Notes under the pieces: model-generated
Database searches by the model: none
The model's input: the letters and a program-made list of their open reading frames with translations, nothing else
What the model was told of the DNA's origin: nothing
In this document: one piece after another, positions 7,943-23,821 of the stretch
How the letters are laid out: each line of letters starts with the position of its first letter
How positions within the stretch are numbered: the stretch's first letter is position 1
Virus record (IMG/VR): IMGVR_UViG_3300043775_000062
Location: 1-25,543 of that record
Strand: one strand, 5' to 3'
Length of the DNA stretch: 25,543 nucleotides
Origin: a virus
Position numbers and translations under genes: made by a program

Positions 7943-8039
7943 GTCGCTCCCTACATATACACAGGCGATCTGTGCATACATAAAGTATGACCTAAATCAA
8001 TGACCTTAGGTTAATTACTTTCGGCGTGTTTTATAACGA
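7943..8039 (-). promoter_or_regulatory. Conserved intergenic leader with hairpin
   Basis: This is the longest non-coding gap in the unit. It aligns well with 22909-23004, including a 25-bp stretch around TTGATTTAGGTCATAC that is the same in both. A 9-bp hairpin (7956-7964 with 7970-7978, 5-nt loop) ends four bases before the ribosome site of the membrane-protein gene. The second unit forms an equivalent hairpin with different stem bases. On this side only, ATGACCT is directly repeated 13 bp apart. I see TACTTT or TATGTA as possible -10 boxes but no spaced -35. Likely a promoter or leader for the early-type genes that follow. Confidence 0.45.
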
Positions 8040-8117
8040 TTAGATAACGCCAATATCCTCAAATTCATCGATATGGTCATCAATCGTGCGGTGCTTATAG
8101 TCTGTTTCAAGCCCCAT
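8040..8117 (-). CDS. 25-aa acidic microprotein
   Basis: ATG GGG CTT ... ATC TAA encodes 25 residues, MGLETDY, then RTIDDHIDEFEDIGVI, with many Asp/Glu. The ATG overlaps the last codons of the phosphoesterase gene. The second unit has an ORF of exactly the same length (23005-23082) with three silent third-position changes and four or five mostly conservative residue changes, and the frame is intact to the same stop codon. That pattern favours a translated peptide. Function unknown; an acidic helix could bind a basic host protein. Confidence 0.5.
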   Translation of the reverse strand: MGLETDYKHRTIDDHIDEFEDIGVI

Positions 8118-8865
8118 ACGACTTTCCAAGAGCTGTGAAACTGCCATCTTTATTGATTGGAATTAGAGTTGGCGTCATGTTTTTTCCGTTCCATTCAAGG
8201 ATTGCGATACCCATCTGCCAATTAGCCACAGTTCGCGTATAAGAGGCTTTTGCTTTATTCATGAGGTTTCCTACCTCAATGCCATATAAAGGTCTGTAAT
8301 GACCTCCTATGCCCTCTGAATAGGCACTCATGCCCAACCTGTGGGTGTGCCCAATAACGCAACTTTTGCCCGTTTTGCGACTAAGGTTCAATGCAGTCAT
8401 TCCAGCATTTGGATTGGCATTGCCTTCATCGCCATGAGCCAACACCCAACCCTTTTCAAATTCGTAGAATGTCTTATGAAATGTAATTCCTAAATTCTCA
8501 AAATCCATGAACTTTGCATATTGTAATTCTGGAAGGCTGATCAAGCCTGGCACTTTTAAGAGAGTGTTATATAAGCGATCAGTATGATTACTGCGGACAA
8601 TATGAGCCTCTTTAGCATTTTCAGTTAATGACCAAAGGATCTCTTGAGTAGCTGTGCGATCTTGGTCAAGAGTTTGTTGATAAGCCAAAGGTGTTTTCTC
8701 AGCCCATCGAGAAATGGTTTGGAAGTCAATTTCATCGCCAACACATAGAACGCTGTCAAACTTCTCACGCCTTGCAAGTTTGATGACATTCTTGACTGCT
8801 TGCTCATGATGGTAGGGTATTTGAAGATCGCTGATAACTAAATATCGCTTAATCGTCATCCTCAT
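8107..8865 (-). CDS. Calcineurin-like metallophosphoesterase
   Basis: 252 aa. Metal-site motifs appear in order: D13-L-Q15 (DxQ in place of DxH, common in phage members), GDEID at 43-47, SNHTDR with N93-H94, AHGD at 143-146 and GHTH at 172-175. The substrate is not known; relatives act on nucleotides, nucleic-acid ends or phosphoproteins. The ATG at 8865 overlaps the 3' end of the preceding gene by 17 nt. The C-terminus overlaps the start of the 25-aa microprotein. The homologue in the second unit lacks a normal start codon. Confidence 0.85.
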   Translation of the reverse strand: MRMTIKRYLVISDLQIPYHHEQAVKNVIKLARREKFDSVLCVGDEIDFQTISRWAEKTPLAYQQTLDQDRTATQEILWSLTENAKEAHIVRSNHTDRLYNTLLKVPGLISLPELQYAKFMDFENLGITFHKTFYEFEKGWVLAHGDEGNANPNAGMTALNLSRKTGKSCVIGHTHRLGMSAYSEGIGGHYRPLYGIEVGNLMNKAKASYTRTVANWQMGIAILEWNGKNMTPTLIPINKDGSFTALGKSYGA

Positions 8866-22908: not shown

Positions 22909-23004
22909 ATTGCTCCCTTACATATCCACAGCCTTTGCGGATACATAAAGTATGACCTAAATCAAGGACGCTTGGTTATTTTCTTTCGGAGTGTTGTATA
23001 ACGA
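22909..23004 (-). promoter_or_regulatory. Conserved intergenic leader with hairpin, second copy
   Basis: Aligns with 7943-8039. The hairpin pairs 22923-22930 (TATCCACA) with 22936-22943 (TGCGGATA), with one G-U pair in RNA and a 5-nt loop. Stem bases differ from the first copy at positions 4 to 6 yet still pair. The ATGACCT direct repeat of the first copy is not kept. Confidence 0.45.
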
Positions 23005-23082
23005 TTAGATAACGCTAATATCCTCAAAATCATCGATATGGTCATCAATCGTGCGTTCGTGATAATCGGTTTCAAGACCCAT
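23005..23082 (-). CDS. 25-aa acidic microprotein, second copy
   Basis: MGLETDYHERTIDDHIDD, then FEDISVI. Same start overlap with the phosphoesterase end, same length and same stop as at 8040-8117. Changes: two residues at 8-9 (KH to HE), E to D and G to S, plus three silent changes. Confidence 0.5.
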   Translation of the reverse strand: MGLETDYHERTIDDHIDDFEDISVI

Positions 23083-23821
23083 AAGTCCGTCTATTATAGG
23101 TAAATGATCCGTCATGATTGACCGGAATCAACTCAACTTGATGTCCTTTATTGCCAAAACTAAGCACCGTAAAACCCATGTTCCAATCGGCTGAGTTATA
23201 TTTTAGGTAGGTCGCCTTACGCATATCCATGAGATGACCGGCTTCTATGCCCCAAATCGTTGAATAACGCCCGTTTAAGCCAGTTTGGTGTCGGACGGCA
23301 CCCTGCCTATGGCTATGCCCACAAACTACGCTAGAATGCCACTTTTTACTAAGATTTAAGGCAGTTATACCGGCATGCTTAGACATGTTGCCTTCATCGC
23401 CATGAGCCAAGTGCCAGCCCTTTTCAAACTCGTAGGCTCTTTTATGAAATCTAATACCCAAGCTGCTGAAATCCATAAACTTGTCATAAGCCAATTCCGG
23501 CAATCCAATAAGTGATGGCGCACCCTTGAGCAAAGTTTGATAAATTCTATCGGTGTGATTCGATCTGACAATATCGGTCGTGCCTAGGTCATAAAGTATT
23601 TCCTGACCAAGTTTTCTTTCCTCGTCAAGTGTTTCTGCAAACTCTAGTTTTGTTCCTTTTGCCCAACGGCTTTGCGAACCAAGATCCATTTCATCACCAA
23701 CATTTAATACAAAATCAAACTTCTCATGCCTTGCCATTTTAATCAGATTTGAAACTGCCTTTGGATGGTGCAATGGAATCTGTAAATCTGGCGTTACAAG
23801 ATACCTGCGGTTGGCTTTAAT
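23072..23821 (-). CDS. Metallophosphoesterase, second copy, without canonical start
   Basis: The reading frame holds all metal motifs: PDLQ, GDEMD, SNHTDR, AHGD and GHSH. The first ATG/GTG/TTG in frame is the TTG at 23773, which lies after the DLQ motif and would remove it. Upstream the frame is open to codons reading IKANRRYLVTPDLQ; the frame's stop is TGA at 23830-23828. An ATT at 23821, with AGGA 9 nt before it, would give 249 aa, close to the 252 aa of the first copy. Relative to that copy, 13 extra bases next to the start shift the original ATG out of frame. It may use ATT, be 5'-truncated, or carry a sequencing indel. Confidence 0.7.
   Translation of the reverse strand: MKANRRYLVTPDLQIPLHHPKAVSNLIKMARHEKFDFVLNVGDEMDLGSQSRWAKGTKLEFAETLDEERKLGQEILYDLGTTDIVRSNHTDRIYQTLLKGAPSLIGLPELAYDKFMDFSSLGIRFHKRAYEFEKGWHLAHGDEGNMSKHAGITALNLSKKWHSSVVCGHSHRQGAVRHQTGLNGRYSTIWGIEAGHLMDMRKATYLKYNSADWNMGFTVLSFGNKGHQVELIPVNHDGSFTYNRRTYGS

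Follow-up and report, generated by a model that had tools for sequence, protein, structure and literature searches.

The 25-codon open reading frame (ORF) that overlaps the end of a metallophosphoesterase (MPE) gene in the DNA analysed here, a 25,543-b linear virus record that we call the window, is on comparison with its relatives almost certainly a translated gene. Comparison showed a conserved ATG, selection on codons 5–18, a length that does not vary among close relatives and a recurring core, all of which argue for coding. By analogy with other short phage peptides, we slightly favour a product that acts in trans by binding a host protein.

Results

Two copies of the microgene

The window contains two related units of about 14.7 kb, which are 72–97% identical over long repeats. 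It is probably made of two different ~14.7-kb genomes lying head to tail, an assembly join of two related phages. Two differing microgene copies also occur near the ends of another record (G025, behind locus L149). Each unit of the window carries a microgene in the +1 frame relative to the MPE gene (Table 1).

Table 1. Features of the microgene region in the window
Feature	Position	Strand	Remarks
Microgene A	8040..8117	-	25 aa, MGLETDYKHRTIDDHIDEFEDIGVI, then stop
Microgene B, second unit	23005..23082	-	25 aa, MGLETDYHERTIDDHIDDFEDISVI, then stop
MPE A	8107..8865	-	phrog_221, E 5e-58; last 11 nt overlap microgene A
MPE B	23072..23773	-	phrog_221, E 2e-53; listed from TTG start
MPE Tyr codon TAT	8116..8118	-	its last two bases and the next G form the microgene ATG
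DNA element CGTTAT-CTAAT-CGTTAT (11-bp direct repeat)	8033..8049	-	overlaps codons 23–25 and stop of microgene A
DNA element CGTTAT-N5-CGTTAT, microgene B	22998..23014	-	as at microgene A
Second conserved intergenic block, TTGATTTAGGTCATACTTTATG	7979..8000, also 22944-22965	-	conservation
Hairpin-forming sequence	7949..7985	-	around Shine-Dalgarno region of next gene

The first-pass annotation had stated that both units keep frame, length, start and stop, with synonymous changes among their differences, and both statements were confirmed. The two copies share an ATG start, 25 codons, a TAA stop and the same 11-nt overlap with the MPE stop, and three of the seven codons that differ do so synonymously (codons 2, 5 and 6). 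Since the remaining four (8, 9, 18 and 23) are non-synonymous, the pair alone is insufficient to prove coding. The peptide is acidic, as it has eight D/E residues against two K/R.

Conservation of the ORF in close relatives

In contrast to the comparison of the two units, the homologues prove coding, since the ORF was retained across loci chosen by their MPE. Two MPE similarity searches, in which the peptide was not used for the choice, gathered 160 viral loci (L005–L164). Eight contigs end before or inside the ORF and were left out as not testable. The exact 25-aa ORF was kept in all 152 loci whose contig covers it; these sequences are related, and the counts are not independent events. The 151 ORFs found by pattern all start with ATG and end with TAA (150) or TAG (1), and the 152nd, in L123, has one substitution outside the pattern. 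Loci outside the strict motif carry substitutions (RTIDNHID, RTIDTHID, NTIDEQID) and no breaks. The motif-anchored set described below overlaps this MPE-anchored set, some contigs being the same (e.g. L169, L085).

These results bear out the acidic 25-aa microprotein over the phosphoesterase end that had been reported from the window. The frameshifts or stops in related phages that were to count against it occurred in none of the 152 testable MPE-anchored loci, and the stop-conservation test proposed at the time found length and stop kept in every one of them.

The start codon inside the MPE tyrosine codon

Because the microgene ATG is formed by the last two bases of an MPE tyrosine codon and the following G, it exists only with TAT, not with TAC. 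Core-bearing loci were detected without requiring an ATG. The tyrosine codon was TAT in all 221 unique core-bearing MPE genes and in all 201 unique core-bearing stretches, and both codons occur in every one of the 15 other MPE tyrosine columns that hold 40 or more sequences. Where the core is missing (59 unique loci), the codon was TAC in 43 and TAT in 16; all of these 16 have another ORF of at least 20 codons in the slot, 12 of which were counted as acidic. The coding claim thus passed an independent start-codon test.

Selection along the codons

Changes were counted by parsimony in 139 unique sequences on a tree of the upstream MPE gene. Codons 5–18 showed 132 synonymous and 103 non-synonymous changes, an N/S of 0.25 of the neutral expectation; in the two other frames the ratio was 1.92 and 1.42 of expectation. 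A pairwise count over codons 5–24 gave a pN/pS of 0.42 in frame versus 0.81 and 0.98 in the others. The dN/dS test that had been suggested for this gene therefore indicates purifying selection on codons 5–18. Within the close clade there is little variation at the third positions of core codons 12, 13, 15 and 16.

The end of the ORF behaves differently. Conservation of the C-terminus and the stop is poor evidence for coding, because codons 23–25 overlap the DNA element and because codons 19–25 showed 9 synonymous and 91 non-synonymous changes (3.9 times expectation). Coding was thus upheld, but the conserved C-terminus and stop were not upheld as evidence for it, the last seven codons being unselected as this peptide. 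Read in frame +1, the same codons showed 35 synonymous and 32 non-synonymous changes (0.38 of expectation). In codons 19–22 (window positions 8052-8063) first positions vary and third positions are nearly fixed, a pattern that the CGTTAT repeat, with its start at codon 23, does not account for. As far as sequence comparison goes, the ORF evolves as a protein over its first two thirds, but not as this protein over its last third.

The DNA element and the intergenic region

The peptide tail is conserved from codon 23 on because the CGTTAT-N5-CGTTAT element overlaps it. The exact element occurs 211 times in the window and the loci then collected, and 206 of these copies lie no more than 160 nt 3' of a microgene core. 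A loose form, YGTTAY-N5-YGTTAY, was present in 238 of the 265 unique regions that follow MPE and in none of the block-shuffled controls, and 237 successive spacings of this loose repeat equal 11. The element is present with or without the microgene (L302-L460); it persists without the peptide, for example, in L343-L364, where the MPE end (YGRPR or similar) runs into it. Its frame shifts relative to the peptide, giving the tails GVI-stop, FVMKSLS and LPFRYQN. We infer that the C-terminal residues of the peptide mostly reflect the overlapping element, which probably serves the next transcription unit as a control site.

The hairpin around the next Shine-Dalgarno region reaches up to about 15 pairs in the close group. 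Arm changes that keep pairing were seen in ATTCACAG/CTGTGGAT and ATGCACAG/CTGTGTAT, the covariation being judged by eye. RNA structure as the cause of ORF conservation was rejected, as no Rfam family matched: the best hit was sR084 (E 0.76, 18.5 bits versus a gathering score of 95), and no described RNA family was found. A DnaA-box or origin reading of the intergenic region was also rejected, at 0.06 boxes per region. Two of 299 loci, L209 and L236, share an identical 20-nt stretch, GGCACAATCCCTCAAGATAG, just upstream of the microgene and are otherwise different.

Occurrence in distant MPE phages

With the MPEs of two divergent loci as new queries, 159 further loci were obtained, 3 of which were truncated and 156 usable. 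An ORF with the pattern R-[TSD]-[ITL]-D-x-x-[IVMLA]-[DN] in the same place after MPE was present in 93 of the 156; the core types were RTIDDHID (28), RTIDDHVD (16), RDIDVQMD (25) and others. The other 63 lacked the core by this pattern, four of them (L318, L375, L390 and L391) resembling near variants. The gene is therefore accessory in MPE phages. In 18 MPE phages without it (G001-G018), profile A1 found no microgene elsewhere in the genome, a weak negative because this profile also missed the RDID-type members (G022, G023).

Some of the coreless loci hold different, mostly acidic ORFs, for example, MADSFCGEEWLGFEEDFVIKSLSK (L338), MAEPAIANPYFEDEDVATIVIKPLPK (L401) and MEGFARPDFGDENPDEFVIVSLSK (L400). 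We also observed that L336-L342, L398-L405 and L411 have unrelated-looking, mostly acidic small ORFs after MPE, with TAT kept, as if this place were a slot for microgenes.

Occurrence away from MPE

When DNA was scanned for TIDDHID in every possible codon spelling, at least 120 stretches matched. Among the matches listed, 119 of 120 lay in ORFs of fewer than 130 codons, as against 2 of 40 for a scrambled TDIHDID control of equal degeneracy, in which 36 of the 40 ORFs fell in one length class and the matches may mostly be one gene. When the MPE-anchored loci were included, 266 motif-bearing loci comprised 247 with MPE upstream, 3 at contig edges and 16 without MPE upstream. One of the 16 (L166) was chance-like and was set aside, leaving 15 loci between other genes. 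No MPE was found in any of these 15 records, several of which are partial and which include no positive control. In nine of the loci, examined closely, the neighbours were structural (tail-like), integrase-like, glycosyltransferase-like, holin-like or endolysin-like, as judged by eye from the translations, and the last codons of the non-MPE microgenes often form the Shine-Dalgarno sequence of the next gene. A search anchored on a holin-like protein found the strict core upstream of 12 of 76 testable holin-like genes.

A relaxed pattern that allows D/E and H/Q returned IDEHID, IDEQID and IDDQID in tiny ORFs, and RTIE forms in large ORFs, except for one short ORF (L297). The residue before the searched pattern was R in 32 and K in 2 of 34 unique non-ETDY members (the contig-edge case L182 included as found). 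In these members position +2 was F/Y/W in 31 and position +3 was D/E in 33, and the conserved arginine is spelled by all six Arg codons. The core consensus R-[TSD]-I-D-x-x-[IVM]-D thus recurs in tiny ORFs with different gene neighbourhoods. The reported overlap with the phosphoesterase end is correct for the window, but a tie to MPE does not hold. The microgene is not essential to the group, since it is absent by pattern from 63 of 156 distant MPE loci and its strict core precedes 12 of 76 holin-like genes.

Searches against known families

None of 29 family members had a significant match to Pfam or PHROG profiles (best E 0.13 and 0.017), nor did any of 14 members to NCBIfam (best E 0.044). 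The RelB-like antitoxin model NF048017 gave a weak, non-significant match to one of 14 members (E 0.12) and none to the other 13. The PDB gave no matches at E up to 10, either by sequence or by profile. When five members were compared by tblastn with 50,697 phage records, two had no match and three had chance-level matches only; HubbaBubba gp6 (MSETPDEHIDHLDNLG..., E 5) was inspected and judged to be chance. Root and Atraxa, two of the closest named small actinophages, have no such motif, and none was seen in the frames inspected after the MPE of Mycobacterium phage Twister. One pattern scan of cellular genome contigs returned two stretches, one in a 200-codon frame and the other in a 22-codon frame without ATG before the motif; both were judged to be chance. 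A full-text literature search for RTIDDHID found no paper.

The family may already be listed in published small-gene catalogues of phage genomes. The survey of Fremin et al. 2022 (Cell Reports), which by its title reportedly predicts small genes in global phage genomes, possibly lists it, judging from that title.

Predicted structure

For a 31-aa relative (L189), an AlphaFold2 model from 14 rows predicted one helix at residues 14–24 (block pLDDT 85), within a model of mean pLDDT 73 and pTM 0.34. In the predicted helix I, I, F and I lie on one face with the acids beside them, and the T before I-D-D may be its N-cap. The model suggests that the peptide consists of an extended N-terminus and one N-capped, amphipathic, acidic helix (T-I-D-D-H-I-D-x-F-E-x-I). 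The helix may recall the sigma-binding helix of RbpA and the N-terminus of omega, a likeness that we do not claim.

Discussion

Our study provides evidence from three separate comparisons that the microgene is coding, including a start codon that is fixed by an otherwise free synonymous choice in MPE. It also shows that a DNA site can shape a peptide tail, and that C-terminal conservation is no proof of coding. That such tiny genes are normally missed, as the first-pass annotation remarked, agrees with the routine omission of genes of this size from annotation.

Among the other explanations, the one that survives best is a cis-acting leader or nascent-chain peptide, whose translation would regulate the downstream gene by ribosome stalling or coupling; we regard it as unlikely. 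The ORF does stand directly before another gene, in the LLKEK group the Shine-Dalgarno sequence of that gene lies within the last codons of the ORF, and the hairpin of the Shine-Dalgarno region follows it in the MPE group. However, the downstream genes differ between groups, the core-to-stop distance varies, the conserved residues lie in mid-peptide with variable tails, and in the MPE group the DNA element and an intergenic stretch stand before the next gene. A leader would be expected to hold its conserved residues in a constant relation to the gene that it regulates, and this was not found. It is less probable still that the peptide is co-translated with the phosphoesterase and acts as its partner or regulator. 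Coupling is made likely by the overlapping start in MPE-associated loci, yet the microgene is absent from many MPE-bearing relatives and present where no MPE was found (several of these records being partial), the 15 non-MPE loci departing from the constant association expected of an accessory subunit.

It is very improbable that the stretch is no gene but a conserved DNA or RNA element whose reading frame is open by chance. The overlap of the C-terminal codons with the conserved repeat and the nearly fixed third positions of some core codons in the close clade would agree with this explanation. It is largely refuted by codon-level selection in one frame (codons 5–18), by the invariant TAT and by the mutual independence of core and element, as non-MPE loci have the core and lack the element, and other loci have the element and lack the core; the use of all six Arg codons at one position also argues against it. 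We give no more credence to a second coded frame overlapping in +1 (MTISMNLRILALSNRYKTRRK in unit A). This frame is open in 138 of 139 sequences, and the ratio over codons 19–25 is low in it, but codons 5–18 run at 1.9 times expectation, the variable bases past the microgene stop fall on second codon positions (judged by eye), and most non-MPE members have a TAG in it, formed by the core Ile codon ATA and the following GAY (judged by eye). Extension of the MPE C-terminus by +1 frameshifting at its stop, as the +1 frame and the 11-nt overlap with that stop might suggest, is hardly credible, since the invariant ATG-creating codon is not needed for a frameshift and the core occurs without MPE.

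We therefore return to a translated microgene whose product acts in trans. Because the peptide is selected as a protein, portable, accessory, short, acidic and predicted to be helical, it would fit a trans-acting binder of a host protein. Ribosomes that finish MPE would start the microgene by overlap or coupling, and the acidic helix of the peptide might then dock on a host protein that the phages need to modulate, as with short phage peptides like T4 Stp. We put forward more tentatively that small phages which otherwise differ share R-[TSD]-I-D-x-x-[IVM]-D as a portable motif for host targeting, carried by mobile microgenes and aimed at one conserved host protein. In the MPE phages this place would be a slot able to take peptides that are unrelated and mostly acidic, and each of them would end in the one 17-bp DNA element, read in all three frames.

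The best named relatives of the capsid protein are mostly Arthrobacter, Curtobacterium and Microbacterium phages with genomes of about 15–18 kb, and those of MPE are mostly actinophages. Excerpts of a freshwater study describe a peak of about 15-kb phages and many predicted actinophages (PMC6802176). The host is presumably a freshwater actinobacterium. That the microgene is kept in ~15-kb genomes suggests that it is important to the phage. The motif could serve as bait for a host protein that small phages of (probably) freshwater Actinobacteria must modulate.

On sequence grounds, the microgene joins an already known kind, the phage microproteins, as a member for which no significant relative emerged from Pfam, PHROG, NCBIfam, the PDB or the named phages. 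The mark of this kind, selection at the protein level on a very short ORF, was found here (N/S 0.25 of expectation over codons 5–18; TAT in 221 of 221). T4 Stp, according to excerpts of PMC3014915, has 26 residues, inhibits EcoprrI restriction and activates PrrC; its N-terminal 18 residues are strongly conserved and the rest variable, and it belongs to the delayed early set. To that extent Stp is a precedent for so short a peptide acting in trans on a host complex, and we liken the microgene product, a phage peptide of near-equal length with one part conserved and the rest variable, to it by length and conservation pattern only. Unlike the delayed early Stp, the microgene lies after MPE or beside tail or lysis genes, in different phages and hosts. 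Small phage proteins that bind host regulators also include TraR-like proteins, Aqs1, Prx and others, with quoted lengths of 51–79 aa in the part of PMC11323111 drawn on here. The microgene product may resemble them in being small, phage-encoded and a presumed binder of a host protein, and it differs from those quoted proteins in that its family spans roughly 22–50 aa and has one predicted helix.
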